From Jeotgalibacillus malaysiensis (GTDB lineage: Bacteria > Bacillota > Bacilli > Bacillales > Jeotgalibacillaceae): 64,000 nt of DNA. The notes beneath the pieces are model-generated. The model ran no database searches and was not told where the DNA came from. It saw nothing but the letters and a program-made list of their open reading frames with translations. The stretch covers positions 2,712,501-2,776,500 of the forward strand of contig CP009416.1 of NCBI GenBank assembly GCA_000818095.1, read 5' to 3'. The first letter of the stretch is position 1. Each line of letters starts with the position of its first letter. Made by a program: the position numbers and the translations under genes. Below are positions 9,561 to 27,575 of this stretch, piece after piece.

Positions 9561-10052
9561 TTACAGCACCCGCATCACCATGTGCTTTCTCGGAAAATGC
9601 AGTTCCTGCAGCATTAACGCAGACACTCTTTGATGCTGTTTTAGGATTGTTTTCAGAGAGCACATGACTGTAATCCGCTCTCCGTTGATAAATTCAACTG
9701 TCGACTTCGCCCTATCCTCATGGTCGTATGCCTTGTGAAAATGCTCAAGCGAGATCCATGTGTTGTTTATATGTGTCGGCGAGTGTGTTGGAAACATAAT
9801 AGTTTCTTCATTTTGATTGACCAGAATTGGAATTTTGCTGTGAATGCCGAATTTGAATCTGACTGATTCCTGTCGGCCTTTGTAGGTGCTGCCACCCATT
9901 TTGCAGGCGTATTCCAGCAATTTTAGTGGAGGCTGCATTGAATAACAGCTTTTATTGGTTTCGATGATGTGGGTTTGGAACTCGAGGTGTCTTGCGCATC
10001 TGATCGCCATTGTTGAAGTATTAATCTTGTAATCTATACAGTTTTCTTTCAT
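9561..10052 (-). CDS. comK: ComK-like competence transcription factor, copy 1
   Basis: 163 residues, clearly related to ComK of B. subtilis. Shared landmarks are CKMGGSTYKGRQESV (ComK: C-FFGSSYAGRK), KIPILVNQNEETIMFPTHSP (KPPIMVDP-QIFLFPT) and the NTWISLEHF core (GWISHVHV). ComK binds AT-rich A4N5T4 boxes and activates DNA-uptake genes. It lacks part of the C-terminal tail of B. subtilis ComK (192 residues). GGGGAG lies six bases before the ATG. It diverges from the sigma-factor gene at 10398, and the same arrangement recurs at 25477-27335. By hand alignment it differs from copy 2 at 35 of 163 positions (about 79% identity). Confidence 0.85.
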   Translation of the reverse strand: MKENCIDYKINTSTMAIRCARHLEFQTHIIETNKSCYSMQPPLKLLEYACKMGGSTYKGRQESVRFKFGIHSKIPILVNQNEETIMFPTHSPTHINNTWISLEHFHKAYDHEDRAKSTVEFINGERITVMCSLKTILKQHQRVSALMLQELHFPRKHMVMRVL

Positions 10053-10397
10053 CCATTTCTCCCCTGTTCGGCCTCTGCCAAAACGTTTATTAACGCGTCG
10101 TTGAAGTGTACCTAAGAAGTGTCGTCTCCTGTTAATTCGACATGTTTTGAGAATCTCCTTTATTTATTTTTATTTTTTAAATATTTAGTAAAATATAAGA
10201 AATTAATTATGCTAAATGTATGTGTTTTGTTTATTTAAAATACAAAATTAAATTATTGTATGAAATAACGATACCGAATTAACCTTTTCAGCTTCGAAAG
10301 TAAAAAACGCTCAATCGCAAGCCGGTGCCTTTTTTTATAAGCTTCAATTAACCCAGGGAATAACCGGTAGACGCGTCTCCATTACGGAGAAAATAAA
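10053..10397. promoter_or_regulatory. Conserved divergent intergenic region, comK/sigma cassette copy 1
   Basis: About 345 bases shared in outline with 25969-26315. Near comK both copies keep an almost unchanged 60-base leader (containing AAACGTTTTGGCAGAGGCCG on the comK strand), a TTAGTAAAATATAAGAAATT block and TATGCTAAATG. Near the sigma gene both keep the CGCTCAATCG, AGCCGGTG, TCAATTAACCCAGGGAATAA and GACGCGTCTCCATTACGGAG segments. In this copy the comK leader holds a four-codon mini-ORF (ATG TCG AAT TAA). Conservation beyond that of the flanking lipoprotein genes suggests regulatory function. Confidence 0.6.
10369..10390 (+). promoter_or_regulatory. RBS-sequestering hairpin and overlapping palindrome before sigma gene, copy 1
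   Basis: TCTCC-ATTAC-GGAGA (10376-10390) folds the ribosome binding site GGAG into a five-base-pair stem. The palindrome AGACGCGTCT (10369-10378) overlaps its 5' arm, so the two folds exclude each other. Both are identical in copy 2. This looks like translational control of the sigma factor. Seen in sequence; function inferred. Confidence 0.5.
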
Positions 10398-10871
10398 ATG
10401 ACTTTTGAAGAACGATATGAACAGTTTGAGCCGATGATTTTTCATATGATGAAGAAGCTTCACGTAACCCGTGATCATGACCTGTACCTTCAGGAGGGCC
10501 GGATTGCGTTATGGAAAGCTTCAGAGAAATTCCAGGAGGAAAATGGTGAGTTTGCTCCTTTTGCCTATCAATATATTCGTGGCGGCATACTTGATCTTAT
10601 GAGAAAGCAGAATAAGTTACTTGAGCGGGAAACTGTAAAATCTGACGAGTACTGTCAGATGAATATGAATATCACAGAAGACAAGCTGCTGGAAATTGAT
10701 ATGCTCACGCCTTACACAGAAGGCCTGACTGCACATCAGAAAAAGTGGTTCTGGCATACGTTTGTGGATGATATGAAGGTGACTGAGATTGCACAAAGGC
10801 ATCAAGTGAGCGTGAGTGCGGTGAAGAAATGGAAGAAGGGTGCAGTTGAGCGGTTGCGGGAAGGGAGGTAG
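10398..10871 (+). CDS. Small sigma-70 family factor, SigH/ComX-like, copy 1
   Basis: 157 residues. Region 2-like N-terminus (FEPMIFHMMKKLH, then LYLQEGRIALWKASEKF, then FAPFAYQYIRGGILDLMRKQ, the core-binding and -10-recognition helices) and a C-terminal helix-turn-helix of region 4 (VTEIAQRHQVSVSAVKKWKKGAVERL). Size and region 2 resemble the competence sigma factor SigH of Staphylococcus. It diverges from comK; in S. aureus ComK and SigH act together on DNA-uptake genes, so a joint role here is a strong inference. The RBS is held in a conserved hairpin. About 92% identical to copy 2. Confidence 0.82.
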   Translation: MTFEERYEQFEPMIFHMMKKLHVTRDHDLYLQEGRIALWKASEKFQEENGEFAPFAYQYIRGGILDLMRKQNKLLERETVKSDEYCQMNMNITEDKLLEIDMLTPYTEGLTAHQKKWFWHTFVDDMKVTEIAQRHQVSVSAVKKWKKGAVERLREGR

Positions 10872-10891
10872 TAGAGGCAGGGTCCCTTCCC
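10858..10891. terminator. Possible bidirectional terminator between sigma and lipoprotein genes, copy 1
   Basis: Inverted arms GGGAAGGGA and TCCCTTCCC with a 16-base loop span the sigma stop codon. There is no T-run, so this is weak. The equivalent spot in copy 2 has a stronger hairpin. Confidence 0.35.
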
Positions 10892-10895
10892 ACAC

Positions 10896-11393
10896 TCACT
10901 CAGCCTCAAAAATTTGATATGTTTTATCAGTAGGTGTCCCTACATCTGAATCTACGAATACATCAATAAAAATTGCATTTAATGCTTCTTCCACTTTTTG
11001 ATTGTTTAATCCTTTGCTGTTAAATATGATCTCCCGGTGATAGAGTACAACATTTTCATTGGGATCATTTTGCTCATCTCCGGTTTCGATTAGATGTCTT
11101 TCCTGGTTATCGATTGAATCGAGTGTATTTTGCCAGCTGTCAGGGTCTGGAAATCGGATTTCACGCTTGATAACGTCATCTCCGTGTTCAAGCTTGAAAT
11201 CGTATATAACTTTACGGAAATCGTTCTTTTGAGGATTGCCTGATACAAATTTTAAGACTTCCTGATATTCCTCATCGCTGATATAGTCAATGACTGCTAA
11301 TGAAGACGTATTAATAGGGTCACCCACTTTTAGACAAGCAGATAGACTCAAAGCTGTAAGAAAAGTGGTAATCATTAAGATTATTTTTTTCAA
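10896..11393 (-). CDS. Cassette lipoprotein, copy 1 (unknown function)
   Basis: 165 residues. Lipoprotein signal peptide with lipobox LSAC (Cys20), then a soluble domain with no family I recognise (DFRKVIYDFKLEHGDD, VVLYHREIIFNSKG, VEEALNAIFIDVFVD). The start is TTG at 11393 with AGGAGGT seven bases upstream; copy 2 also uses TTG. It is convergent with the sigma gene and preserved in both cassettes, so it probably belongs to the same function. About 70% identical to the copy at 26838. Confidence 0.8.
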   Translation of the reverse strand: MKKIILMITTFLTALSLSACLKVGDPINTSSLAVIDYISDEEYQEVLKFVSGNPQKNDFRKVIYDFKLEHGDDVIKREIRFPDPDSWQNTLDSIDNQERHLIETGDEQNDPNENVVLYHREIIFNSKGLNNQKVEEALNAIFIDVFVDSDVGTPTDKTYQIFEAE

Positions 11394-11575
11394 ATCCTGA
11401 ACCTCCTTGCTAAAAAAGCGATTGATTTTTTAGTATGTAATTTCCTATAAAAATGTTCTGATATATATGTTATCAAATCTTAACGCTTGTAACTTTAATT
11501 CTTCTCATGTTTTCTCATAAAGAGGGTAATATTTCGTTAAGGACGATCAAATAGGATATTCAGGGAGGTTTTATT

Positions 11576-11878
11576 ATGAACACAGCAACGAAATCGATTT
11601 TAGTTGGTTCAATTGCATCGATTGGTACATTTACTGCCATTAAAGGGTACCAGAAAAGAATGAATGGTAAGAACCCAGATGTAAATTTTGAAACGCTTGA
11701 AGATACTGATATGAGAAATAGTGTAAAGGTGGATCAAGAGGAAAGTGTTAACGCTGATTTTGATCAGGAAGAGAAAGATCTTACTCAGTTGGATGCTGCT
11801 TACAGAGCAGATTGGCAGGCGAATGGATTTCCTCAGACACATGAGGAGATGGAGCGGTTAAAGAAGGAAGAAGAGTAA
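11576..11878 (+). CDS. Small hypothetical protein with N-terminal hydrophobic segment
   Basis: 100 residues. A short hydrophobic N-terminus (SILVGSIASIGTFTAI) is followed by a charged, acidic, probably helical tail ending LDAAYRADWQANGFPQTHEEM. GGGAGG lies eight bases before the ATG. I do not recognise the family. Its first dozen codons recur as a remnant behind the second comK cassette, so it marks the edge of the duplicated segment. Confidence 0.75.
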   Translation: MNTATKSILVGSIASIGTFTAIKGYQKRMNGKNPDVNFETLEDTDMRNSVKVDQEESVNADFDQEEKDLTQLDAAYRADWQANGFPQTHEEMERLKKEEE

Positions 11879-12022
11879 AAATAATTGCAAGACTTATTTA
11901 AAATTGGAGACCGGGGTAAGTTCGGTCTTCTTTTTTGTATGGAAGATAATGAAATGATGATTGAGGAATCTCTTTGCCCGGAAACTTTTACAACTCCTGG
12001 AACAATGAGATGAGACCCTTAA

Positions 12023-12307
12023 TTAGATAAAGAAAATGTCAGCATAGAATGATCTGCTGACATTTTTATGATCTATTTCTTTTGCAAAATCAGGCCTGCC
12101 ACTTCCTTTATTGTTCCCTGACTTTAAAAAAGATAATCTCCAAATAGTTAAAGGAATAATAAAAGCTAGTACAAATACGTAGATGCCATACGAGGCATTT
12201 TCAGTTGTCGTTATATAGGGAGCAGTTACTAATGCAATAAAAGTGAGTGGCAACATCAAATAAAGCAGTTTTTTAAATGAGCCTTCTGTTACTTTTTTAC
12301 GAGCCAA
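12023..12307 (-). CDS. Small two-helix membrane protein
   Basis: 94 residues with two hydrophobic helices (LLYLMLPLTFIALVTAPYI and IYVFVLAFIIPLTIWRLSF) and a charged tail. The start is TTG with GGGGTG eight bases upstream. No family recognised. First of a run of three small membrane-protein genes on the minus strand. Confidence 0.6.
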   Translation of the reverse strand: MARKKVTEGSFKKLLYLMLPLTFIALVTAPYITTTENASYGIYVFVLAFIIPLTIWRLSFLKSGNNKGSGRPDFAKEIDHKNVSRSFYADIFFI

Positions 12308-12408
12308 TTATGAATCACCCCCCATATAGTTCTCCACTAGCTATACATGTAAGTGGTCGTTCTATTACCTAAAGTATTCAATAGTGCCAGATTAACGTAT
12401 TTATACTT

Positions 12409-12609
12409 TTAATTATTTTCTTCTTTAACACTATTTCCTTTAATTTTCGTAATAATCTTATCCATAAATATCGCGATAAATAATCCGAAGACCCCAAAAA
12501 ATGAAATACCAAGATTACCAAAAGAGGTATGTCCTGTGACTAATACATAAATCGCAGTTAATACCATGGCCATGACTATACCAAACAAAATCCTGGGTAT
12601 CTTTTTCAT
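12409..12609 (-). CDS. Small two-helix membrane protein
   Basis: 66 residues from the ATG at 12609, which has GGAG eight bases upstream; an ATG at 12624 lacks a good site. Two hydrophobic helices flank TGHTSFGNLG. It shares the pattern IY-LV-G-TS-G with the product of the gene at 12653, so the two look like tandem paralogues. Function unknown. Confidence 0.62.
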   Translation of the reverse strand: MKKIPRILFGIVMAMVLTAIYVLVTGHTSFGNLGISFFGVFGLFIAIFMDKIITKIKGNSVKEENN

Positions 12610-12652
12610 TTTTTCACGCTCCATCTTTTTATTTTTGAAAATTGACCTTGTC

Positions 12653-12826
12653 CTATGAATTTCTGTTAAGAACCTTATGACTTACTAAAGAAATTAGAAC
12701 TATAATAATGAAGATGAGAAGCAAACTACTAAAACTTCCTCGTGATGTCTGACCAATTACAAGATAATAAATTACAGAAAGGATGATTAAAACTACAGAA
12801 TACAGTGCTAATTTAGTTTTCTTCAT
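12653..12826 (-). CDS. Tiny two-helix membrane protein, paralogue of neighbour
   Basis: 57 residues: MKKTKLALYSVVLIILSVIY, then YLVIGQTSRGSFSS, then a second hydrophobic helix and a basic end. AGAGGG sits four to five bases before the ATG. The same IY-LV-G-TS-G spacing occurs in the product of 12409-12609, which supports both as real genes. Confidence 0.5.
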   Translation of the reverse strand: MKKTKLALYSVVLIILSVIYYLVIGQTSRGSFSSLLLIFIIIVLISLVSHKVLNRNS

Positions 12827-13021
12827 AATCCCTCTACTTTCAATATAAGACGAATCGATATTAAATTATGATCTTTAACCTTAATTTATTGTCATTGCTT
12901 TTCTGTGTACCCTCATATTACTTATTTAACCTTAATATTACATTTAATGTATGGTGCACTTTATTTAAATGGTATTTCCTGCATAAATGATACAATAACC
13001 TCCGTCCCTCTGTATCACCAC

Positions 13022-13056
13022 AAAAAAGCCAGCCCCCATTCCCCGGGAGCCGGCTC
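13022..13056 (-). terminator. Terminator of CWB2/Ig-like surface protein gene
   Basis: On the minus strand the arms AGCCGGCTCCC and GGGGGCTGGCT pair with two wobble/mismatch positions, followed by a run of six T. It lies 15 bases after the stop codon. Confidence 0.85.
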
Positions 13057-13070
13057 TTTACTTCGTTCTA

Positions 13071-15347
13071 TTAAGTCAACATATACTTACATGGAATGCT
13101 ATGTCCATTGTAATCGATGTAGACAATATAATATGAATTATTTCTTGAAATGCCAAAGCCAAAGTCGAATCCTATGGACCATCTGTTGTTGGAGTAGATG
13201 GTTGTTGGAACTCCATTTGATTCCAGATTTTCTTTTGTACGGGTACTATATAGCTGGCCATTACTATATATTTCTACTTTTTCTACTTTTAAGTCTTGTG
13301 GTGTGTAATTTGATAGTGTGATCGTATAACTTTTAATAAGTGAGTTAATGATGACAGAACTTTTTCCTGTTAATAAAAGATCGTCCTGTAAATGCTTCAC
13401 TTCCAGATGTAGCTTAGCGCTTTCATCATAATTTTCAATGCTTCCTTCAAATGTGATACTTCCAATAGTTGAAGTATCAACTTCTGTAGTATTCCATGTA
13501 ACAGCTTTTTCTTCTAAAGTCCCGTTATTCATTTGTACTGTAACTTGTGTTGGCAAAGTAAAATCATCCCATTGATAAACTTCCTGGTAAATGTCATCGA
13601 CGAATTCAATCATGACGGGAACAACTGTTAAATCAAATGTTGCTGTGTAACCGCCGTCTGTTGCTGTTGCAATAATTTTGGCATTACCGGCTGAAAGGGC
13701 TGTGATGTTACCATTAGCATCTACTTCAGCAATTGCTGGTTCAGATGATGACCAAGTCACTTCTTTATTTGTTGCATTATCAGGAGATACAGTTGCCTGT
13801 AATGTTGTAGATTCACCTTCAATAAGCGTACCTGATGTTTGATCCAGTTTAATAGAAGTAACATTGATTGGCTTAACTGTCAGGGTGTAAACATCTGTGA
13901 ATTCTCCATCTTCTGATTTTACTGTGATAATTGCCGTGCCTACTGATTTAGCTTCAACAATACCTTCTCCAGTGACTGTTGCAATTGCATTGTCTGAACT
14001 TGTCCAGGACACAGTTTTATTTGTTGCATTTGAAGGTGAGATTGTTGCCGTTAGTGTATCTGTTTCACCAATCTTTAATGTGTTTGTTGATTTATCAAGT
14101 TTTACTGATGTGACATTAATCGGCTTTACTTGTACTTCAGTAGTAGCTTTAAAACCACCATTTTCTGATGTAGCTGTAATTACAGCTGTCCCGATTGAAT
14201 GACCTGTTACCTTACCATCTTGATCAACTGTTGCAGTCTCAGCATTTGATGATGACCATTGAACAGTTGGATTAGTTGCATCGGCTGGTGTAATAACTGC
14301 ACTTAATAAAGTGCTTTCGCCAATTTTGATTCCAACAGCTGATGGATTAAGTGTAACTTTTGAGACAGAAATAAAAAGCTCTTTGTTCAACTCACTTTCA
14401 AGCTGTTCACTTACTGCGCCTGCTCCTCCAAGAATGACTGCATTTTTAACCCTTTTATCTTTCATAAACTTAATTGTAGAAGCGTCCATCGATTCTTTTT
14501 TCGTTAAAAAGATAGCAGTATCATTTTTTGAAGCAATAGCTGACCCGCTCAGTGCATCAGGAAAACTGCTTCCTGTGGCAACATAAGTTTTTTCAAAAGA
14601 TAAATCCTTTTGAAAATGCTTCATAATAGAAAGGTTTGTTTCGTATCTCGTATCCCCACTTAGTCTCTTACTGTTTGGGACACTCTTATCTAATGAACTG
14701 TCCAGCACCCCGGTTCCACCAATAATATATGAAACAGGAATATTCTTATTTTTGATAAATGATTTTATGTTTTCATCCAATCCTGTTTTTCTGGAAAGTA
14801 AAATCGGCATCTGCTTTGAAGAAGCAATTGGAGCAATTGATAAAGCATCTGGGAAATTGCTTCCCATCGCCACTGTGATTCCATTTTCCACACCAATTTC
14901 CTGGGCAATCTTTAAAGATGTTTCATATCTGTCCTTACCGGCAATTCTAGTTGTTTCAATGCTCATCTTTTTTAATTCTTCTTCTATTGAAGTACTAATC
15001 ACATTAGTTCCTCCAATGATATAAACTGTTTTTGTGCTTAAAGCTTTTAATTCTGAAATGGCCGCAGCACTTAGTTTACCAGCCTTTGTAAGAATAATAG
15101 GCGCATCTTTAGATTTCGAGAGTGCAGATGCTGATAAAGCGTCAGGGAAATTGCTCCCAGTCACAAGTATCACATTAGGTGCAGCATTCCATCCCTCTCT
15201 TGCAATTTCTAAAGAAGTTTCATATCGATCTTCACCAGATAATCTGGATACAAGTTCTGTGTCAGTTTGAGCTGAAGCCTGACCTGGTTGGAATGTAGAG
15301 ATGAGTAGTCCTAAACTCAATAGTGTTACAAATAGTATTTTTTTCAT
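13071..15347 (-). CDS. Surface protein with three CWB2 repeats and Ig-like (Big_2) domains
   Basis: 758 residues from the ATG at 15347, chosen because GAGG lies nine bases upstream and a signal peptide (MKKILFVTLLSLGLLIST...ASA) follows at once. Three CWB2 wall-binding repeats begin near residues 37 (LSGEDRYETS), 134 and 225 (LSGDTRYETN). Then come three bacterial Ig-like group 2 domains (each with the W-SS--A-V pattern and a GTA-IT or GNAKI strand, about 327-565), a fourth Ig-like module with VTWNTTEVDTS, and a C-terminal domain of about 100 residues that I do not recognise. Probably an adhesin-like or structural wall protein. Confidence 0.9.
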   Translation of the reverse strand: MKKILFVTLLSLGLLISTFQPGQASAQTDTELVSRLSGEDRYETSLEIAREGWNAAPNVILVTGSNFPDALSASALSKSKDAPIILTKAGKLSAAAISELKALSTKTVYIIGGTNVISTSIEEELKKMSIETTRIAGKDRYETSLKIAQEIGVENGITVAMGSNFPDALSIAPIASSKQMPILLSRKTGLDENIKSFIKNKNIPVSYIIGGTGVLDSSLDKSVPNSKRLSGDTRYETNLSIMKHFQKDLSFEKTYVATGSSFPDALSGSAIASKNDTAIFLTKKESMDASTIKFMKDKRVKNAVILGGAGAVSEQLESELNKELFISVSKVTLNPSAVGIKIGESTLLSAVITPADATNPTVQWSSSNAETATVDQDGKVTGHSIGTAVITATSENGGFKATTEVQVKPINVTSVKLDKSTNTLKIGETDTLTATISPSNATNKTVSWTSSDNAIATVTGEGIVEAKSVGTAIITVKSEDGEFTDVYTLTVKPINVTSIKLDQTSGTLIEGESTTLQATVSPDNATNKEVTWSSSEPAIAEVDANGNITALSAGNAKIIATATDGGYTATFDLTVVPVMIEFVDDIYQEVYQWDDFTLPTQVTVQMNNGTLEEKAVTWNTTEVDTSTIGSITFEGSIENYDESAKLHLEVKHLQDDLLLTGKSSVIINSLIKSYTITLSNYTPQDLKVEKVEIYSNGQLYSTRTKENLESNGVPTTIYSNNRWSIGFDFGFGISRNNSYYIVYIDYNGHSIPCKYMLT

Positions 15348-15371
15348 TAATGTGTTCCTCTTTTCAGTCAT

Positions 15372-16127
15372 AATTATTTTAGCTATATCAATTTAAAATT
15401 ACTCTTAGACTAATTTTGATGGTCACCATCCCTTATTTGCACTTATAACTCTGAAAATATGTATTACATGCATATGAAACCATTTCATAACAGTAATATC
15501 TTATCATCTTTAGGTGAATTTAGAACTATTATTTTTAATTATTTTGTAATTTATTTTTCGACAAATTTGATCTACCTGCATTTAATTACAATCTCTGTTT
15601 CCTAATGATGTACGTAACTACTTAGATTCATAAAGATTAAAGGCATCATGGGGTACAAGAACATAAATCTGAGGTCGAAGTCACTAATTCACTATTAAAC
15701 TGTTAGTCAAAGGCTGTAAATGAAATCAGCAAAGTAAATATTAAAGGAAGAGGAGTTTAATAAAATGACAATAAAATTGCGAAGTGTGATAGGGGTTTAT
15801 ATATGAGATATGAATTGAAATCGCCGGACCTAGATATATTTGATTAAATTAGGGAGACGGAATTATAGATTCTGCTTTGCTATTTCCAGTTACTCTAGTG
15901 CATCAAGGGAGAGAACGTTCAAATAAGGATATTATTGAACCAATTACGAGAGGCGGCGACTCAATTAATTCTATCCATGATGCATAAAACTCTATCTCTA
16001 TAAGCCCTGATTCAATTAATCCAAGTGATGAGCCAATTATATTGAGTGCTGAACCGTATACTTTGTGAGGTGGTACAATTAGTAGAATCGCCCCACACAA
16101 ACTCACTTTTCCCACAACATAAATATT
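15372..16127. other. Gene-poor region
   Basis: About 750 bases with no gene I can defend. A 13-codon ORF with a good GAGGAG site begins at ATG 15764 (MTIKLRSVIGVYI) but is too short to call. A 70-codon minus-strand ORF (15903-16115) starts on GTG without a ribosome binding site. Upstream promoter elements of the surface protein gene must lie near 15380-15480. Confidence 0.4.
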
Positions 16128-16160
16128 GAGCTGAGAGAGGCTCTATTCCTCTCTCAGCTC
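16128..16160 (-). terminator. Hairpin after truncated surface-type gene
   Basis: Perfect 13-base arms GAGCTGAGAGAGG and CCTCTCTCAGCTC with a seven-base loop, ending 15 bases from the stop codon of the gene at 16176. The T-run is weak. Confidence 0.65.
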
Positions 16161-16175
16161 ATATCAATCTGATGA

Positions 16176-16619
16176 TTAAGCTCCAGCTTTAACCGTCTGC
16201 TTCCACACGCCATTTTCATCCTGCCATTTGATGATCATTGTGCCACTAGTTTCAGTAAGATAGAATGTCTGGGAAGGATTCGCAACAAGCTCTCCGCTTT
16301 CAGTGCCTTTTACGTATTCTACGTAAACTGCAAAGTTATTTGAGTTTGTTACTCTCCAGACTCTGTCTCCATCCTGAATACCAAGATCCGGGTGGGCAGC
16401 TTTAAATGCATCTGATTGACCATCCTGAATATATGTTAAATTAAGGTTTTGCACAACTAGCTCTGCATCATATACATCCGGTGAAGTCTCTGTCACAATT
16501 TCATCTAACTCCGCTTGTGTCATTGGTTGTTTATCTTCAGTTTCAGCCTCAACTGTTTCAGAAACTGCAGCGAGTTCTGCTACTTTGGCATTGGCTTCCT
16601 GAATCTCAGCGTGAGCACG
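16176..16619 (-). pseudogene. 3' part of a gene cut off by an IS remnant
   Basis: The open frame runs to the IS junction near 16620 and encodes an Ala/Glu-rich heptad stretch (HAEIQEANAKVAELAAVSET) followed by a folded-looking C-terminal domain (AFKAAHPDLGIQDGDRVWRV, then TMIIKWQDENGVWKQTV). No start or signal peptide remains because the sequence turns into transposase DNA. An internal ATG (16523) could start a 115-residue fragment but has no obvious ribosome binding site. Family not recognised; the original was probably an exported protein. Confidence 0.65.
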
Positions 16620-17445
16620 CTACATTCGCAGGCATTAAACGAAACACGTATTACTTTTTGTCAAGAAGATCAATCTACCAGGGATGCCGAGCTAAAAGCT
16701 GAAATTCAAGCGATTTACAACGAACATAAAGACCGTAATGGGTATCGTCGTATTCGTTATGAACTGACGAATCGTGGACAAAAAGTGAATCACATGAAGG
16801 TTCAACGCATTATGAGGGAACTTGGTTTAAAGTGCTTAATATGAATGAAAAAATATAAATCCTATAAAGGGACGGTTGGCAAAATTGCGCCAAATATTTT
16901 AGACCTTCACTTTACCGCGGAAGCACCGAATGAAAAGTGGGTAACGGATATTACAGAGTTTAAATTGTTTGGCGAAAAGCTGTATTTCTCACCTGTTTTA
17001 GATTTATTCATATGCGAAATTATTACGTATACAATTTGCTCAAGACCGACATATTCATTGGTTTCAGAGATGTGAGAAAATGCTTTAAAGCATTTGTAAG
17101 AGGAACACCAGCTACTCATTCATTCCGCGGTCAAGGTTGGCATGATTCAAATGAAACAATATCGCCACGTTCTTGATTCGAGAGGGATTGTACAAAGTAT
17201 GTCGCTCAAGGGAAACTGTTATGACAACTCCGTTATGGAGAATTTTTTCGGCATCATGAAATCTGAATTCCTCTAATTAAAGGAATTTGAAAGTGTCGAA
17301 CATTTTAAAAAAGAACTTAAAAACTATATGAACTATGACAACACGAAACGTATCAAGGCAAAATTAAAAATGAGTCCAGCGCAGTACCGAACTCATTTTA
17401 CTCAAACTGCCTAAATGAAATAATTGTGTCTAACTTTTAGGGGTC
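16620..17445 (+). mobile_element. IS3-family (IS150-type) insertion sequence remnant
   Basis: Carries orfB transposase pieces in changing frames: AGIKRNTYYF, then AELKAEIQAIYNEHKDRNGY, a TGA in place of a codon after LKCLI, then the DDE part WVTDITEF and later a shifted ENFFGIMKSEF piece. The first Asp motif is visible but several frameshifts and stops kill the gene. The right end TGTCTAACTTTTAGGGGTC (17427-17445) looks like the terminal repeat. The left end and orfA are missing, with the break inside orfB at about 16620. Confidence 0.85.
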
Positions 17446-17504
17446 TCTTCAATTTATTCCAACCTTCGTTTTTACTGTCAAATAGTTATTACACTTATAA
17501 ATTA

Positions 17505-19163: not shown

Positions 19164-19190
19164 TTTCCATCTCTCCTGACTTAAGCTAAG

Positions 19191-20953: not shown

Positions 20954-20980
20954 AGTCTTCACCTTCTTATCTAGAAAGTA

Positions 20981-21003
20981 AGGGAGAGAAATGGTCTCTC
21001 CCT
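20981..21003 (-). terminator. Intercistronic hairpin between dctP and dctQ
   Basis: Perfect arms AGGGAGAGA and TCTCTCCCT with a five-base loop in the 80-base gap after dctP. There is no long T-run. Probably a partial terminator or a 3'-end stabiliser that gives more binding protein than permease. Confidence 0.55.
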
Positions 21004-21034
21004 CTGTTTTGCACTTAAGCGTTCTCGTTACTGA

Positions 21035-22048
21035 TTATTTCAAATCATTGATTTTCTGCAGCAGTTCTTCAACGCCCATGTCTTTTGCAGCTGCTTCATT
21101 CATTGGATCTGCGATATCAATAAAAGGCTGTCTGTCAATTTCATTGATTTCCGCACCATCATCAAGTGCAATCTGCTTATATTCTTCTTCCTGAGCGAAT
21201 ACTGCTTCGCGTTCTGTTTCTACAGACGCTTCAGCTGCCTGCATCAGAATTTCTTTTTGCTCATCTGTCATTGCATCATATTTATTTCCGTTTACTAACA
21301 ACAGTCTTGTTGTGTAATCATGTGCTGTTTCCGTTGTATATTTTCCATTTGGCGTCTGGTGATGGTTCTGCTGTACAAAGTATGGATATGAGTTCTCGGA
21401 AGAATCCACTACATTTTGCTGAAGGGCCTGGTAAAGCTCGCCCCATGCAACTGAACTCGGTACCGCGCCAAGTGATTTCCAGTAGTCTGCCACTACTCCT
21501 GACGTCTGCGTACGGATCGACATACCGCTTAAATCATCAATAGACTCGATTGGCTTTTTACCGTAATAGTGTCTGACGCCTGCTGACCAGTAGCCGATAA
21601 TTTTAAAATCATTATTTGATTTTTCGTTAATAATCGATGCGAGTTCTTCCCCTACCTCGCCATCAACAACACTTTCCCAATGCTCATAGCTGTCAAACAG
21701 GTATGGTAGGGCTAACAGATCCACTTCATCAATGCCTGTTGCAGTCATAAAACCTGGTGATACAAGCACGACATCCGCTCCGCCAAGCTTCAACTTTTCA
21801 ACCAGTTCAGATTCCTCTGTTCCAATCGTTCCCGCATGTACTTCCACTTCAATTGCACCGTCAGATTCTTCTTCAGCTACTTCTTTGAACTTCAGCAATC
21901 CATCCTGATACGGATTTTCCGGCGATGTCTGGTTATGTGCCGCAACAATTTTAATACCATCTCCACTGCTCGCTTCATCACCACAACCTGCAAGTACCAT
22001 TGACGCTGTAACCATAACTCCCATAAATGCTGCCAGACTCTTTTTCAT
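21035..22048 (-). CDS. dctP: TRAP transporter substrate-binding lipoprotein, DctP family
   Basis: 337 residues. Lipobox VLAGC (Cys22) anchors it outside the membrane. DctP-type features are the IKIVAAHNQTSPENPYQDGLLKF start, GGADVVLVSPGFM, LPYLFDSYEHW, the signature Arg in SGMSIRTQTSG (carboxylate-binding in this family) and NSYPYF. The conserved Arg suggests a substrate with a carboxylate group, such as a sugar acid. Confidence 0.94.
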   Translation of the reverse strand: MKKSLAAFMGVMVTASMVLAGCGDEASSGDGIKIVAAHNQTSPENPYQDGLLKFKEVAEEESDGAIEVEVHAGTIGTEESELVEKLKLGGADVVLVSPGFMTATGIDEVDLLALPYLFDSYEHWESVVDGEVGEELASIINEKSNNDFKIIGYWSAGVRHYYGKKPIESIDDLSGMSIRTQTSGVVADYWKSLGAVPSSVAWGELYQALQQNVVDSSENSYPYFVQQNHHQTPNGKYTTETAHDYTTRLLLVNGNKYDAMTDEQKEILMQAAEASVETEREAVFAQEEEYKQIALDDGAEINEIDRQPFIDIADPMNEAAAKDMGVEELLQKINDLK

Positions 22049-22098
22049 CCCAATTCCTCCTTATGTTCGTAAAAGTTAATTTAGTAGAGTGATTGTTC

Positions 22099-22650
22099 CT
22101 ATTCCATATTCGCGTGGCGCTTTGTCATCGTTTGGTATTCCTCTTCGTCCCCTTGAATGGTGCCGATAATGATTGCATCAAGTACGAGGTGTACAGCCTG
22201 ATCGAATTGATTGCCAAGTGGCTGAATCGTATTAGGCTCTTCTTTACGGCGGTATTTCGTAGCCGCCGGAATCACGAGCGTTACATCACTGAGTTTTCCT
22301 ATTTTTGAATCCTTGCTGGTTGTAACGAGCAGTACTTTTGCTCCAGTTTCTTTTGCTTTAGAAGCAAACTGAAGGATTGCTCCTGTTGATCCTGATCCTG
22401 AGATAGCGACTAGCAGATCCCCTTTTTCAATGCTTGGGGTAATCGTTTCACCAATGACATATACTGAAAAGCCGCCGTGCATTAATCTCATGGCAAAAGC
22501 TTTTCCCATTAACCCTGATCTGCCTTCTCCTGCGATAAAAATCCGACTGGCCTTTTTCAGTTCTTTGCTTACTGCGAGTGCCTCTTCTTCATTAACCGAA
22601 GACAAAACGTTGGTCATCTCAATTCCGACTGTTTCAATGATGGTTTTCAT
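22099..22650 (-). CDS. hxlB: 6-phospho-3-hexuloisomerase
   Basis: About 183 residues, SIS sugar-isomerase fold: IFIAGEGRSGLMGKAFAMRLMHGG and VAISGSGSTGAIL bind the phosphosugar, with KVLLVTTSKDSKIG after. Interconverts 3-hexulose-6-phosphate and fructose-6-phosphate. Follows and overlaps hxlA, the same pair as in the ribulose monophosphate pathway. I take ATG 22650; a TTG at 22659 sits closer to AAAGGAG. Confidence 0.9.
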   Translation of the reverse strand: MKTIIETVGIEMTNVLSSVNEEEALAVSKELKKASRIFIAGEGRSGLMGKAFAMRLMHGGFSVYVIGETITPSIEKGDLLVAISGSGSTGAILQFASKAKETGAKVLLVTTSKDSKIGKLSDVTLVIPAATKYRRKEEPNTIQPLGNQFDQAVHLVLDAIIIGTIQGDEEEYQTMTKRHANME

Positions 22651-23272
22651 CAGATTCAATCACTCCTTTCAGCTCTTCAGCAGCCCTTTTACTATCAGGC
22701 GCCTTTGTGATAGCGCTTCCAACAATCACAATTGAAGGCGACTTATGTAACAGTGCGGGCAGGCTGTCAGCATTGATCCCGCCTGCTACAGCAACTTCAA
22801 GCGCTGAGTTCACACTTAACAGATCAAAAAGATTAACGTTCATCGCACCTTGGTGCTGCATATCCTTCCCATAGTGCAGGCTGACTAAATCAGCACCAAG
22901 CTGCTCGATTCTCCTCACCCGGTCAGGATCTTCCACGCCCAGCAGATCGATCATCATTCTTTTTCCATACTTACCCGCGATTGAAAGCGTATCTGAGATG
23001 GTGTTATCTGCTGAAAAAGCCATCACAGTAGAAATGTCTGCCCCTGCTTCAAACGCCTGAGCAGCTTCAGCAGCGCCTGCATCACAGGTCTTCATATCAG
23101 CTACGAGTGTTGTATCCGGATAACGCTGCTTTACTTCTCTGATGATTGACATCCCGTATTCCTTAATGACACCGGTGCCAATTTCAATCCAGTCAATGTA
23201 TTCTTCAGTTTCTTCTATTAATCTGAAACACTCTTCTTTTGATAAACGGTCAAGTGCAAGCTGTATCTTCAT
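22634..23272 (-). CDS. hxlA: 3-hexulose-6-phosphate synthase (OMPDC superfamily)
   Basis: 212 residues, (beta/alpha)8 barrel. LALDRLS at the start, WIEIGTGVIKEYG, the catalytic VADMKTCDAG (pattern D-K--D) and SLHYGKDMQHQG follow HPS closely; the end has VAVAGGI and SIVIVGSAIT. HPS condenses formaldehyde with ribulose-5-phosphate or runs in reverse. The superfamily also includes 3-keto-L-gulonate-6-phosphate decarboxylase, so in this sugar-acid operon a decarboxylase role cannot be excluded. Pairing with hxlB argues for HPS. Confidence 0.85.
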   Translation of the reverse strand: MKIQLALDRLSKEECFRLIEETEEYIDWIEIGTGVIKEYGMSIIREVKQRYPDTTLVADMKTCDAGAAEAAQAFEAGADISTVMAFSADNTISDTLSIAGKYGKRMMIDLLGVEDPDRVRRIEQLGADLVSLHYGKDMQHQGAMNVNLFDLLSVNSALEVAVAGGINADSLPALLHKSPSIVIVGSAITKAPDSKRAAEELKGVIESDENHH

Positions 23273-23286
23273 ATCAACACCACCTT

Positions 23287-24237
23287 TTAACGTTCAATAG
23301 ATTCTTTTTCTCCCATCCTCACTAACAGATCATCTAAATAAGGAAGCCCTTCATTATCCCCTGACACACTGACAACCATAGAACCTACAGTATTAGCGAA
23401 ATGCAGCGTCTTTTCTAAAGACCATCCATGTAACACACCATAGATAAAGCCTGAATCAAATCCATCTCCTGCACCAACTGTATCCACAACTTTCCCGGGT
23501 ACTACAGCCGGCGAGACAACCTTCTCTCCGTTATAGAAACCGATTGACCCTTCAGCCCCCTGCTTAATCGCAATATAGGAGATGCCTTCATCTAAGCTTT
23601 TGGCAATAATCATGTCCGGATCATCTGTTCCATACAAAATCTCAGCCTCTTCTATCCCGATCAGCAAAATATCAACGTAAGGTAAAAACTCTTTCAATGC
23701 AGCTTTTGCCTCTTCTTTACTCCAGAGTCTCAATCGGATATTCGGATCAAGAGAGATGAGCATATTCTGCTTTTTTGCGAGTTTCATCGCTTCTTTAATC
23801 AGCTCTACGTTTTTATTCGGGTCCACTGCCGGAAAAACGCCTGTCACGTGAAGCAGCTTCGCACCAGATAAAACGGTTTCATTTATATCGTCTTTAGTAA
23901 GATCGGTTGTTGGTGAATTGGAACGGTAGTAAAAGGTTCTCCCTGTTCCGTCCTCTAGAATCTCCTTGAAATGTACGGAAGTCGGATAACCGTCAACCAA
24001 CTTCACTTCTGAAGTGTCAATACCTTCTCCTCTTGTAAAGTTCAGTATGACCTTGCCGAATTCATCATTACCAAGTCTGCTAACCCACTTTGTTTTCAGT
24101 CCGAGCCTCGAGCAGCCAATCGCTACATTCAACTCAGCTCCTCCAACTTTTCGTTCAAACGTATTTACATATCTCATCGGCCCCCGTGTTACCGGGTTAA
24201 GTGAGATCATCGCATCACCGATCGTGATTACATCCAT
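23287..24237 (-). CDS. kdgK: PfkB-family sugar kinase, 2-keto-3-deoxygluconate kinase-like
   Basis: 316-residue ribokinase-fold kinase. Substrate-side motif GGAELNVAIGCSRLGLKTKWVSRLGNDEFG near 32-61 and the ATP/anion-hole motif VDTVGAGDGFDSGFIYG near 250 with the catalytic Asp. The start MDVITIGDAMISLNP is typical of KdgK. With the KDPG aldolase at the end of the operon, phosphorylation of 2-keto-3-deoxygluconate is the most likely reaction. Other ketose or ketoacid substrates remain possible. Confidence 0.85.
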   Translation of the reverse strand: MDVITIGDAMISLNPVTRGPMRYVNTFERKVGGAELNVAIGCSRLGLKTKWVSRLGNDEFGKVILNFTRGEGIDTSEVKLVDGYPTSVHFKEILEDGTGRTFYYRSNSPTTDLTKDDINETVLSGAKLLHVTGVFPAVDPNKNVELIKEAMKLAKKQNMLISLDPNIRLRLWSKEEAKAALKEFLPYVDILLIGIEEAEILYGTDDPDMIIAKSLDEGISYIAIKQGAEGSIGFYNGEKVVSPAVVPGKVVDTVGAGDGFDSGFIYGVLHGWSLEKTLHFANTVGSMVVSVSGDNEGLPYLDDLLVRMGEKESIER

Positions 24238-24264
24238 TGCTATCTCCCCCCTCTTTCCTGCTGC

Positions 24265-25269
24265 TTAACAGGAGTCTCTGCTTATTAAAGTTGGTTCGTA
24301 ACGATAAACTGGATCAATTTTTGATTCCTTATTTTGAAGCTTCTCAATCAGCAGCTCAGCAGCCTGCGTACCCATTACAAATGTGGGCTGTGCAATTGTT
24401 GTGAGTGCCGGATTATATACAGAAGCAAACGATACATCATCAATGCCGATAATAGCTAACTCCTCAGGCACTTTAATAGAATGTGCTTTTACATATTTCA
24501 GAACTTCCATCAAAATCAGATCATTTGATGCAAGAATTGCTTCCGGCGGTTCATCCATTGAAAGCATCTTTTTAAGTCCATCCTGCACTTCTTCAACCTT
24601 GAGACCTTTTACGTACTCATCTCTGATCACCAGAGAATGCTCCTTTATCGCTTCTTTAAACCCATTGATCCGTTCTATCCTTGGTGCTACACCTAGCTCC
24701 AGTGAAGTTGTCATAATTGCAATCCGCTGATAGCCCTTTTCTACAAAATGTTGTACGGCAAGCTTAGAAGCTTTTACATTATCAAGCTGGATGACCGGTA
24801 CATCTACGTTCTCAACATTTCGATCGAGAAAAACGAGCGGATAATCGGAATCTACTAACTTCTGATAAAGTTCAACATTCCCGGTTGTCGGGAAGATAAT
24901 TAAGCCATCTACCTGCTTCGCAAGCAGCATCTCTATATACTTTCTCTCTTTTACAGGGTCATCATCTGCATTACAGACAATGATGTGAAAATCATATTCA
25001 TTACAATAATCCTCAATTGCTCTGATCACCTGGGTTGAAAAGGCGTGGAGAATATTGGCAACAATGACACCAATTGTCGAAGTAGACTTCTGCTTCAGGC
25101 TTCTCGCCACTGCATTCGGCTGATAGCCAAGCTCCTTAATCGCCTCTTCAATACGATTCTTCGTACTCTCTCCCATATAATCAAATCGCTTATTTAAATA
25201 TTGGGAAACGGTGCTTTTCGATACATTTGCATGATTAGCAACATCCGAAATTGTGATTCGTGTCTTCAT
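24265..25269 (-). CDS. LacI-family transcriptional regulator of the sugar operon
   Basis: 334 residues from ATG 25269, which lies eight bases after GGGAG. N-terminal helix-turn-helix TISDVANHANVSKSTVSQYLNKR, hinge helix NAVARSLKQKSTSTIG, then a periplasmic-binding-protein-like effector domain (GLIIFPTTGN, VFLDRNV, AIIGIDDVSFASV). First gene of the operon; the promoter just upstream holds a double palindromic operator of LacI type, so autoregulation with release by a pathway sugar is likely. KdgR-like in context. Confidence 0.92.
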   Translation of the reverse strand: MKTRITISDVANHANVSKSTVSQYLNKRFDYMGESTKNRIEEAIKELGYQPNAVARSLKQKSTSTIGVIVANILHAFSTQVIRAIEDYCNEYDFHIIVCNADDDPVKERKYIEMLLAKQVDGLIIFPTTGNVELYQKLVDSDYPLVFLDRNVENVDVPVIQLDNVKASKLAVQHFVEKGYQRIAIMTTSLELGVAPRIERINGFKEAIKEHSLVIRDEYVKGLKVEEVQDGLKKMLSMDEPPEAILASNDLILMEVLKYVKAHSIKVPEELAIIGIDDVSFASVYNPALTTIAQPTFVMGTQAAELLIEKLQNKESKIDPVYRYEPTLISRDSC

Positions 25270-25311
25270 CTGCATAACTCCCAATTCAGTTTATTTTTCT
25301 AAAATCAAGTT

Positions 25312-25340
25312 ACTAAACCGATTTAGTAAATCGGTTTAGT
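25312..25340. promoter_or_regulatory. Double LacI-type operator
   Basis: A perfect 29-base palindrome: arms ACTAAACCGATTTA and TAAATCGGTTTAGT around a central G. Each half is itself a near-palindrome centred on CG (TAAAYCGRTTTA), the usual form of LacI-family operators. So two sites lie side by side over the expected transcription start of the regulator's own operon. Confidence 0.8.
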
Positions 25341-25343
25341 GAA

Positions 25344-25372
25344 AGTATAAAGTAAATGAAAGCGTTTTACAA
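25344..25372 (-). promoter_or_regulatory. Operon promoter with overlapping cre-like site
   Basis: Minus-strand TTGTAA (25367-25372) and TATACT (25344-25349) separated by 17 bases. TGAAAGCGTTTTAC at 25357-25370 matches the CcpA cre consensus except at the last two bases and covers the -35 region, as expected for glucose repression. The LacI-type operators follow immediately downstream. Confidence 0.65.
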
Positions 25373-25448
25373 CACTAAATCTGAATTTTTTTTGATGCTA
25401 AATTATGATTCTATTGAACGAGTAACTTGGGATAATCGTTCAGGGAGC

Positions 25449-25473
25449 GAAGTCTGGGTCTGGCCCAGACTTC
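25449..25473. terminator. Hairpin downstream of comK copy 2
   Basis: Perfect ten-base arms GAAGTCTGGG and CCCAGACTTC with a five-base loop, directly after the comK stop. No clear T-run; it may be a terminator or a small repetitive palindrome. Confidence 0.5.
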
Positions 25474-25476
25474 ACT

Positions 25477-25968
25477 TCACTCCACCCTCATCACCATCCG
25501 CTTCCTCGGATAATGCAATTCCTGCAACATCAATGCCGAAGCGCGCTGATGCTGCTTGTTGATCGTTTTCACAGAGCAACTAACCGTTATCCGCTCACCA
25601 TTAATAAACTCAACAATCGCTTTCCCCCTCTCCGTATGCTCATAAGCTTTATGAAAATGCTCAAGTGAGATCCAGGTGTTATCAATGTGTGTTGGTGAAT
25701 GGGTTGGAAACATGATGATTTCTTCGTTCTGATTGACCAGTATTGGAATTTTACTATAGAAGCTGAATTTGTATCTGACTGAATCCTGGCGCCCTTTGTA
25801 GGTGCTGCCGCCCATGATGCAGGCGTAATCCATCAGTTGAAGTGGAGTCATTGGTGAGTAGCAGCTTTGGCCGCTTTCAATAATGTGAGTTTGATACTCG
25901 AGGTGTCTTGCGCATCTGATTGCCATCGTTTTCTGATTGATCTTGTAATCCGCGTGATTTTCTTTCAT
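25477..25968 (-). CDS. comK: ComK-like competence transcription factor, copy 2
   Basis: 163 residues, same length as copy 1, with the same ComK landmarks (CIMGGSTYKGRQDSVRYKF, KIPILVNQNEEIIMFPTHSP, NTWISLEHFHKAYEH). I start it at ATG 25968 because GAGGAG lies six bases upstream and copy 1 starts at the same codon. In this copy the frame stays open through the leader up to an ATG at 26079, which would add 37 basic residues. Differences from copy 1 lie mostly in surface-type positions; the core is intact, so both may be functional. Confidence 0.85.
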   Translation of the reverse strand: MKENHADYKINQKTMAIRCARHLEYQTHIIESGQSCYSPMTPLQLMDYACIMGGSTYKGRQDSVRYKFSFYSKIPILVNQNEEIIMFPTHSPTHIDNTWISLEHFHKAYEHTERGKAIVEFINGERITVSCSVKTINKQHQRASALMLQELHYPRKRMVMRVE

Positions 25969-26315
25969 CCATTTCTCCTCTGTTCGGCCTCTGCCAAAAC
26001 GTTTATTAACGCGTCCATGAAGTGTCACTAAGAAGTATCGTCTCCTGTGTATTCGACACATACTGAGGATCTCCTTCATTTATTTTAAATATTTTTACTT
26101 ATTAGTAAAATATAAGAAATTATTTATGCTAAATGGTTTGTTTTTACACGTTTCAAGGCGAATGAACACTCTTTTAAGTGGAAAATGGGTGAATTATTGT
26201 GTTTCCGGCCTCCAAACGAACAAAACGCTCAATCGTCAGCCGGTGTCTTTTCTTATAATCTTCAATTAACCCAGGGAATAAACGGCAGACGCGTCTCCAT
26301 TACGGAGAAAATGAA
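25969..26315. promoter_or_regulatory. Conserved divergent intergenic region, comK/sigma cassette copy 2
   Basis: Counterpart of 10053-10397 with the same blocks in the same order. It additionally holds a perfect inverted repeat TTTTACT-TATT-AGTAAAA at about 26093-26110, which is only partly kept in copy 1. The AGCCG/CGGC segments before the sigma gene vary between copies (ACCGG versus CGGC on the 3' side) in a way that still allows pairing. Confidence 0.55.
26287..26308 (+). promoter_or_regulatory. RBS-sequestering hairpin and overlapping palindrome before sigma gene, copy 2
   Basis: AGACGCGTCT (26287-26296) and TCTCC-ATTAC-GGAGA (26294-26308), identical to copy 1 in sequence and spacing although the surrounding DNA has diverged. 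Confidence 0.5.
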
Positions 26316-26789
26316 GTGACATTTGAAGAACGCTATGAACAGTTTGAGCCAATGATTTTTCACATGATGAAAAAGCTTCACGTAACGCGGGACCATGACC
26401 TCTATCTGCAGGAAGGCCGGATTGCGCTATGGAAAGCTTCGGAGAAATTCGAGGAGGCAAATGGCGAGTTTGCCCCTTTTGCCTATCAATACATACGCGG
26501 CGGGATGCTGGATCTGATGCGGAAGCAGAACAAGCTACTGGAACGTGAAACCGTAAAATCTGATGAGTACTGGCAAATGAATATGGATATTACGGAAGAT
26601 CAGTTACTTGAAATCGACATGCTCGCTCCTTACGCAGAAGGGCTGACTGCGCATCAGAAAAAGTGGTTTTGGCATACGTTTGTGGATGATATGAAAATTA
26701 GTGAAATTGCAGAGCGACATCAGGTGAGTGTGAGCGCGGTGAAAAAATGGAAGAAAGGCGGTGTGGAGCGGTTGCGGGAAGGGCGGTAG
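26316..26789 (+). CDS. Small sigma-70 family factor, SigH/ComX-like, copy 2
   Basis: 157 residues; twelve differences from copy 1 by hand alignment. Same region 2 helices and region 4 helix-turn-helix (ISEIAERHQVSVSAVKKWKKG). The start is GTG where copy 1 has ATG, which would lower translation. Diverges from comK copy 2 and converges on lipoprotein copy 2. Confidence 0.82.
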   Translation: MTFEERYEQFEPMIFHMMKKLHVTRDHDLYLQEGRIALWKASEKFEEANGEFAPFAYQYIRGGMLDLMRKQNKLLERETVKSDEYWQMNMDITEDQLLEIDMLAPYAEGLTAHQKKWFWHTFVDDMKISEIAERHQVSVSAVKKWKKGGVERLREGR

Positions 26790-26793
26790 AGCA

Positions 26794-26827
26794 AAGGAAG
26801 GGGCCAGACCGACAAGGCCCCTTCCTT
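26794..26827. terminator. Bidirectional terminator-like hairpin, cassette copy 2
   Basis: Arms AAGGAAGGGGCC and GGCCCCTTCCTT with a ten-base loop, between the convergent sigma and lipoprotein genes. Confidence 0.6.
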
Positions 26828-26837
26828 CTCCACTCTT

Positions 26838-27335
26838 TCATTCTGTTCCAAAAACCTCATATACTTTATCAGTAGGAGTGCCTACTCCTGAATCCACATA
26901 TACATCAATATAAATAGCGTTTAATGCTTCTTCAACTTCTCGGTTGTCCAATCCTTTGCTGTAAAAAATAATCTCGCGATGATAGGTCACAACATTTTTA
27001 TAGTTCTCGTTTTGCTCATCACCATATTCAAGCAAATATCTTTTTTGGTCATCAATTGAATCAAGTGTATCTTTCCAGCTCTCAGGGTGAGGAAATTGAA
27101 TTTCCCGCTTGACGATATCATCTGAATGTTCCAGTTCAAAATCGTATGTAATTTTACGGAAATCATTGATTGCAGGAGTCCCTGTTACGATATTTAGCAC
27201 TTCATCATATTCTTTCTCACTAATGTAGTTTAATGTAGTCCATGAAGACGTAATGATAGGATCACCTACTTTTAAACAAGCAGATAGACTCAGAGCCGAA
27301 AGTAAAGTTGTAGTCATTAATATTAGTTTTTTCAA
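26838..27335 (-). CDS. Cassette lipoprotein, copy 2 (unknown function)
   Basis: 165 residues from TTG 27335, with GGGAGG eight bases upstream, matching the start and length of copy 1. Lipobox LSAC at Cys20, then DFRKITYDFELEHSDDIVKREI, VVTYHREIIFYSKG and EEALNAIYIDVYVDS. No known family recognised. Retention in both cassettes suggests a role tied to the ComK/sigma pair, for example in competence or in sensing. Confidence 0.8.
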   Translation of the reverse strand: MKKLILMTTTLLSALSLSACLKVGDPIITSSWTTLNYISEKEYDEVLNIVTGTPAINDFRKITYDFELEHSDDIVKREIQFPHPESWKDTLDSIDDQKRYLLEYGDEQNENYKNVVTYHREIIFYSKGLDNREVEEALNAIYIDVYVDSGVGTPTDKVYEVFGTE

Positions 27336-27512
27336 TAAGTGAACCTCCCAATAAAAAGAAAACCGATTTTTTATACATGCAGTTCCTATAATTTTTCTAT
27401 TATATATTATCAAACATCAACACTTGTAACTTTAATTATTCGAATATTCTCCATAAAAGAGTGTAATGTCTCATTAAGAGCAATTAATTAGAATGCTGAA
27501 GCAAGTTATATC

Positions 27513-27575
27513 ATGAACCATGCAAGCAAATCGATTTTCGTTGCATCTATCATCAACGAATTCAAATACTCCTAA
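27513..27575 (+). pseudogene. Remnant of the small gene that follows cassette copy 1
   Basis: The first twelve codons (MNHASKSIFVAS) match the gene at 11576 (MNTATKSILVGS); homology then stops and a TAA follows after eight unrelated codons. The ribosome binding site present in copy 1 (GGGAGG) is lost. Marks the end of the duplicated segment. Confidence 0.65.

Follow-up and report, generated by a model that had tools for sequence, protein, structure and literature searches.

Why does Jeotgalibacillus malaysiensis carry, twice within 16 kb, a gene for a ComK-type regulator beside a small sigma-70 gene, and how is that sigma gene controlled? The pairs lie in a 64,000-nucleotide stretch of contig CP009416.1 (positions 2,712,501 to 2,776,500), here called the window. 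What is new is a dedicated leader ahead of the sigma gene, with two palindromes directly after a promoter-like site. On balance we favour an explanation in which ComK2 and the sigma factor form a relay with this palindromic leader, the pair having been duplicated and kept. An earlier note had read the locus as a duplicated competence module; the duplication stands, the competence assignment is not supported, both ComKs falling in a separate ComK2 clade. A role in DNA uptake is possible.

Two comK–sigma sets in one window

Each set comprises comK (minus strand), a sigma gene (plus) and a lipoprotein gene (minus). The sets occupy 9561-11393 and 25477-27335, about 15.9 kb apart:

9561..10052, minus strand: ComK2-type regulator copy 1, 163 residues (PF06338, E = 6.8e-33; in the ComK2 clade, support 100/100)
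10398..10871, plus strand: sigma-70 family factor copy 1, regions 2 and 4, 157 residues, ATG start (Sigma70_r2, E = 1.8e-9; r4_2, E = 1.1e-5; NF005248, E = 1.9e-26, below its cut-off)
10896..11393, minus strand: lipoprotein copy 1, 165 residues, TTG start, convergent with the sigma gene (a lipobox, LSAC, is readable in the sequence; Pfam gives no match)
25477..25968, minus strand: ComK2-type regulator copy 2, 163 residues (PF06338, E = 6.3e-36; AlphaFold2 mean predicted local distance difference test score (pLDDT) 91.9)
26316..26789, plus strand: sigma-70 family factor copy 2, 157 residues, GTG start (Pfam and NF005248 searches; 92% identical to copy 1)
26838..27335, minus strand: lipoprotein copy 2, 165 residues, TTG start (68% identical to copy 1)

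The duplication is documented by direct repeats of the two sets, spaced 15916-15942 nucleotides (nt) and far above chance, and by protein identities of 79% for ComK, 92% for sigma and 113/165 = 68% for the lipoprotein, close to the earlier hand-aligned values of about 79%, 92% and 70%. Gene lengths are equal in the two sets, as had been reported. The equal start codons noted for the lipoproteins hold, TTG in both open reading frames (ORFs); those of the sigma genes differ, ATG in copy 1 and GTG in copy 2. The convergent sigma and lipoprotein genes are separated by 24 nt in copy 1 and 48 nt in copy 2, and the comK copy 2 ORF has an alternative start 37 codons upstream, reaching 26079. The whole genome (4.12 Mb) has three ComK genes, the third at G000:C1:1250876, and its only close sigma relatives are the two cassette copies; the third match is 27% identical.

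A two-palindrome leader precedes the sigma gene

About 60 nt before the sigma start are visibly similar in 13 rows from the genus and in nearly all of 80 named loci (the best 80 of 202, nine of them Jeotgalibacillus). The window holds two such leaders:

10337..10399, plus strand: sigma leader copy 1 (covariance model R1, 33.7 bits; covariance model R2, 26.3 bits)
10338-10343, 10352-10358, 10369-10378 and 10386-10389, plus strand: parts of leader copy 1 read by eye, respectively a -10-like TAAGCT, the first palindrome CCCAGGG, the second palindrome AGACGCGTCT and the ribosome site GGAG
26255..26317, plus strand: sigma leader copy 2 (R1, 33.2 bits, this copy being in the training set; R2, 24.6 bits)
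26256-26261, 26270-26276, 26287-26296 and 26304-26307, plus strand: parts of leader copy 2 read by eye, respectively a -10-like TAATCT, the first palindrome CCCAGGG, the second palindrome AGACGCGTCT and GGAG

R2, which was built without any Jeotgalibacillus row, still detects the two leaders of the window, and one leader apiece in the 11 other loci of the genus.

To find the first palindrome, symmetry was demanded and a preceding A and a following AAT were favoured; 150 of 169 loci passed. Alignment A2 and the sets of 126-128 leaders were restricted to rows that have their best second palindrome 18-25 nt further along. In 126 leaders aligned on the first palindrome, TA-N3-T occurs at -13 in 110, and an A at -1, where the picking rule favoured it, in a rounded 100%, as expected for a transcription start there. 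The order is that A, then ACC-NN-GGAAT, then about 19 nt on a longer palindrome, mostly around GCGCGC.

Self-complementarity persists when the centre is left open. In a recount of 138 non-redundant leaders, 102 picked by flanks alone have the frame ACC-NN-GGAA and the centre is self-complementary in 99 of these (a quarter expected); the three misses are all TG. AC-NNNN-GAAT occurs in 100 of the 138 and is palindromic in 96 (one in 16 expected), and all 16 leaders with a three-base centre have ends that pair. Among the 72 leaders of A2, 86.3% of cells pair, as against 72.7% in shuffles (0/500 as high), and 128 cells are changed on both sides, as against 41.5 in shuffles, a signal that collapses when the partner is slid. 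The A2 count leans towards symmetry because its rows were located by symmetry. Alignment A5 (54 well-aligned leaders), which omits Jeotgalibacillus, odd-centred and several poorly aligned A2 rows, gives the same pairing and covariation result.

The element is almost confined to this one gene. Over 81 genomes R1 finds 69 sites. Of these, 67, spread over 64 genomes, stand immediately ahead of a sigma gene; one of the other two precedes what appears by eye to be a sigma remnant (G019) and the other is weak (24 bits). We therefore reject a genome-wide regulon motif. For 28 of the 64 genomes A2 holds no locus of that genome's own, and some of these may share a species with a named row. Among 75 genomes with a listed sigma gene, 11 have no R1 match there; by eye several of these, including G031, G034, G046 and G048, have a variant site. 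In the literature searched, which left subscription journals largely outside, we recognised no description of the leader element or of an order-wide comK–sigma pair.

The regulators belong to a separate ComK2 clade

The earlier note had taken the 163-residue proteins to be ComK, and profile searches bear this out: they match PF06338 along most of the domain at 114 and 123.9 bits (cut-off 22.3; E = 7e-33 and 6e-36). A tree of 93 ComK proteins, however, places them apart from canonical ComK, which the Jeotgalibacillus genome also encodes. A group of 48, including both window copies, splits off with support of 100/100 on a branch of 0.74; on the other side stand 20 canonical rows, selected as high-scoring and not sigma-adjacent, together with a further 25 rows (support 99/79). 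The C-terminal tail beyond the model end is 19 residues here against 62 in the genome's own canonical ComK frame, the group ranges overlapping. The window proteins share their Pfam family with Bacillus subtilis ComK, whose boxes are described in PMC3536758; boxes at those gaps stand before the sigma promoter in a fifth of the leaders, mainly Bacillaceae. They differ from B. subtilis ComK in clade, in the shorter tail and in having promoters without clear K-boxes. The AlphaFold2 model of copy 2 weakly resembles LytTR DNA-binding domains (best E = 8e-3; template modelling score about 0.35-0.5), and no solved structure related to ComK2 by sequence was found. A further divergent ComK (78 bits) occurs in two other genomes of our set, G008 and G011 (L257 6435-6920; L260 13140-13598), with no sigma gene seen beside it, and the ComK match of G004 is in two pieces (G004:C22:141775-142205; L263 17716-18230).

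The sigma factors are not of the SigH type, contrary to the earlier reading. They are absent from the seven genome matches to the spore_sigH model TIGR02859, and true SigH is a separate gene (C1:127021, 362.4 bits); C1:190936, another candidate for SigH, is a sigma factor of the extracytoplasmic function type. The best named model for the window sigmas is NF005248/PRK06759, a sigma-70 family factor that they resemble over almost its full length, at scores (92.7 and 88.4 bits) below the curated cut-off of 133; relatives above that cut-off occur in 46 of 397 genomes of the order. Phage carriage was rejected (45 viral loci, best 27% identical).

comK and sigma are neighbours far more often than chance allows

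A survey of the order found a sigma relative in 114 of 120 genomes and ComK in 118. We sampled linkage in 60 other genera, each represented by a single locus no longer than 16 kb, leaving out three (g9, g19 and g41) whose ComK had already been seen beside sigma in shorter loci and two with weak sigma matches only. Of these 60 loci 21 contain ComK, no more than 1 kb from sigma in 16 and no more than 3 kb in 19, whereas 0.48 would be expected from two ComK genes placed at random in 4 Mb (p = 5e-29). The adjacency thus recurs far above chance. Within 3 kb the 19 genes comprise 15 divergent, 3 convergent and 1 tandem; the recurrence of linkage in all three orders fits repeated selection for nearness. 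Among the 80 named loci ComK occurs in 43, within 1 kb in 37. Inside the genus, ComK lies at most 2 kb from 10 of 13 sigma genes (9 of 12 genomes), and 4.9, 10.9 and 14.9 kb away from the others (G006, G007 and G004).

The lipoprotein does not share this history. It had been counted as part of the duplicated module; no conserved triplet exists, since it occurs in 2 of 12 genomes of the genus and is a lineage-specific local addition. In three Rossellomorea/enclensis loci of eight searched, c-di-GMP-I riboswitches stand just beyond the sigma 3' end on the opposite strand, aimed through sigma to comK (minus strand; L118 8546-8631 and 9765-9848, L121 8541-8626 and 9743-9827, L145 8539-8624).

A proposed relay from ComK2 to the sigma gene

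The closest parallel is in Bacillus cereus ATCC 14579, where comK2 (BC5250) adjoins a sigma gene, BC5251, described as downstream in the reverse direction. According to the available part of that study (PMC3128618), overexpression of comK2 raises BC5251 more than 1000-fold, against 1.9-fold for comKBsu and 2.6-fold for comK1; the authors report DNA-uptake genes as unaltered by comK1 or comK2 overexpression, and comK2 reduced ComKBsu-driven comGA expression. The published quantitative PCR primer for BC5251, CAATGTGGTTTAATCGGTCTTTGG (PMC3128618), hand-translates to QCGLIGLW, a region-2 motif of the window sigma family, and on this translation the window pair is most likely homologous to comK2/BC5251. 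A search allowing up to 3 mismatches placed the primer in a single genome among 397, at a site other than that of its sigma gene. The two systems share a ComK2 without the C-terminal end, an opposite-strand sigma neighbour and another comK elsewhere; they differ in that the pair is doubled here and accompanied by a lipoprotein and a small gene, and the accessible portion of the B. cereus description (PMC3128618) contains no leader element.

ComK boxes before the sigma gene point the same way in part of the leaders. K-boxes are two AAAA-N5-TTTT boxes at gaps of 8, 18 or 31 bp (PMC3536758, as far as available). Box pairs in 128 leaders peak at start-to-start distances of 21, 31, 43 and 52, the first three agreeing with the published gaps to within 1 nt; 736 control promoters, chosen by ORF rules in the same loci and not by mapped starts, stay far below this, with a slight rise near 21. 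A strong pair at gaps of 8, 18 or 31 occurs in 27 of the 128 leaders and 13 of the 736 controls (odds ratio (OR) 14.9, p = 7.6e-15). Leaders with strong boxes, about a fifth, are chiefly from Bacillaceae.

Each set would then pair a ComK2-type activator with a small sigma-70 gene in what is most likely the relay known as comK2/BC5251. Accumulating ComK2 would switch on the neighbouring sigma gene, as seen in B. cereus on overexpression, and the sigma factor would redirect RNA polymerase to a regulon. Judging from the position of the -10-like site, the A that immediately precedes the first palindrome is probably where sigma transcription begins. The palindromes, at about +2 and +20, may be a cis control site dedicated to this gene, most simply a pair of operators recognised by a symmetric and perhaps dimeric DNA-binding protein; that putative protein would act on the sigma gene alone. 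In this Jeotgalibacillus the pair was duplicated along with a lineage-specific lipoprotein and a small gene, with selection keeping both copies.

Several observations weigh against this relay. Neither a ligand of the palindromes nor a sigma regulon was found. Out-of-phase strong box pairs are enriched too (6/128 versus 8/736, OR 4.5; out-of-phase range OR 1.8 to 4.5), so part of the box excess is not phase-specific. The best pair sums in Jeotgalibacillus reach 10-12 of 16 in 10 of 11 rows, G008 alone attaining 14; when the gaps may vary by 1, window copies 1 and 2 reach sums of 13 and 12, as do 89 and 211 of the 736 controls. Because boxes are at background in most Jeotgalibacillus leaders, we infer the step from ComK2 to sigma in the window. 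A generic sigma-70 promoter scan finds no site before sigma copy 1, so the sigma promoter rests on the cross-species position of the -10 element; overall the generic promoter and terminator scan gave 3 promoter-like sites, with 7.1 in shuffles. ComK is absent from the sigma locus in 39 of the 60 other genera. Along the sigma tree the linkage state switches 20 times, so linkage was often made or broken, and its clustering is no greater than in 55 of 500 shuffles. Nor is sigma linkage confined to the ComK2 clade, 22 of the 25 further rows on the canonical side being sigma-adjacent. One genome, G046, has a sigma gene and a leader-like site, which covariance-model search under strict filters missed, and no ComK, so ComK is unlikely to be an obligatory ligand of the palindromes. 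Single sigma residues tracking palindrome type were sought and rejected: the top columns look like phylogeny, as judged without a formal control.

Alternative explanations

The leader could act as an RNA device, by a hairpin, by sequestration of the ribosome site or by mRNA dimerisation, instead of as DNA operators. Its place within the first ~35 nt of the inferred mRNA, ahead of the ribosome site, speaks for this, as does symmetry maintained through changes on both sides. The spacing between the palindromes varies over about six nt, beyond what a rigid DNA complex allows, and G-U mismatches, which discriminate RNA from DNA, exceed A-C mismatches by 43 to 28, but at p = 0.10. Folding argues the other way: RNAalifold gives no consensus fold for the leaders, the window leaders fold no better than shuffles, and the first palindrome cannot be a hairpin because its centre is 0-1 nt. 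A hairpin sequestering the ribosome site shows no excess (pairing 70.8% versus 70.2%), and neither the T-box nor any other Rfam 15 family overlaps the two window leaders or the leaders of 16 further loci. An RNA device is rather doubtful on this evidence; we favour two DNA operators as the simplest account of the palindromes, with RNA pairing kept open.

The other alternatives concern the genes. In Staphylococcus SigH works with ComK1/ComK2, a ComK and a sigma factor in one organism, and the window pair might likewise jointly turn on DNA-uptake genes. ComK family membership, comEC in 12 of 12 genomes of the genus and the ComK boxes ahead of the sigma gene in some Bacillaceae leaders agree with that. 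Unlike in Staphylococcus, however, SigH here is a separate gene and the cassette sigmas are outside the SigH-model matches; comEC is no test of competence because 10 of 14 control genomes also have it; and in B. cereus, by the available account, comK2 overexpression left DNA-uptake genes unaltered and lowered ComKBsu-driven comGA (PMC3128618). We judge such a competence module unlikely. Plain paralogous duplication, with sigma and comK neighbours by history and without interaction, would suit a linkage so frequently lost or made and a lineage-specific lipoprotein, and is quite improbable given ComK in 21 of 60 loci where 0.48 would be expected, the occurrence of divergent, tandem and convergent arrangements alike, and the induction of BC5251 in the available B. 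cereus results (PMC3128618). That the lipoprotein is an anti-sigma factor or signal sensor of the module we consider very improbable: it is present in both copies, convergent with sigma at 24 and 48 nt, but in only 2 of 12 genomes of the genus, is encoded on the strand opposite sigma and belongs to no Pfam family, and its model (mean pLDDT 52.3) was too poor for a fold search.

Age of the duplication and selection on both copies

Both copies are under purifying selection: the ratio of non-synonymous to synonymous divergence (dN/dS) between them is 0.03 for sigma, 0.10 for ComK and 0.18 for the lipoprotein. Synonymous divergence (dS) between copies, at values near saturation, is 1.38 for sigma, 1.44 for comK and 0.98 for the lipoprotein. 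Measured against G008, the nearest relative, and its sigma-linked set, sigma dS is 0.77 for copy 1 and 0.95 for copy 2; the corresponding values are 1.81 and 0.99 for comK and 1.30 and 1.27 for the lipoprotein. Since the inter-copy values approximate those to G008, the duplication is not recent and its age is comparable with the split from that genome. G008 has a sigma-linked comK2 and, some 8 kb away from that sigma gene, an intact lipoprotein; its other comK2 adjoins a broken lipoprotein, and no sigma gene was found beside this comK2. In the ComK tree its two copies pair together and window copy 2 is outermost; as this grouping has mixed support, gene conversion or parallel duplication may have contributed. 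Bacillus litorisediminis also has two sigma genes (L155 and L159), each adjoining a comK; one of its comK matches (G019:C53) contains a stop.

Other features of the sets

11576..11878, plus strand: small fourth-gene protein of unknown function, 100 residues (ORF; relatives beside both G008 copies)
27513..27575, plus strand: fourth-gene remnant, 20 codons (read by eye; overlaps a direct repeat of the two sets)
10053..10150, minus strand: pre-comK region copy 1 (the alignment shows strong conservation with copy 2, G008 and G011)

The earlier note had described the fourth gene after copy 2 as a 12-codon stub. It is indeed a remnant; its ORF has 20 codons, alike over roughly the first 12-13 by eye. 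The ~95 nt before comK (10053-10150 and 25969-26066) are by eye better conserved than much of the gene in G000, G008 and G011. Transposase fragments of the HTH_21/rve kind lie between the copies (16515-17075), and an epsC RNA (80.9 bits) lies at 50923-51035 on the minus strand.

Implications

The finding bears on why Bacillales retain a second ComK, the one in B. cereus having no clear effect on DNA uptake. It ties the second-type ComK of many genera to one small sigma factor, and adds named carriers together with a promoter-like site and an element at the start site. The leader is unusual in that self-complementarity is preserved at two short sites ahead of one kind of gene. A ComK-linked relay in many genera, its sigma gene fitted with a two-palindrome start site of its own in which letters drift but self-complementarity is kept, and which in the genomes searched occurs almost only before this sigma gene, could represent a new mode of single-gene control, through a co-evolving dedicated dimeric regulator or RNA–RNA pairing at the 5' end, over a sigma regulon; we give this somewhat less than an even chance. 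The sigma targets and the palindrome binder become testable questions, for which the duplicated copies offer a natural comparison within one cell.

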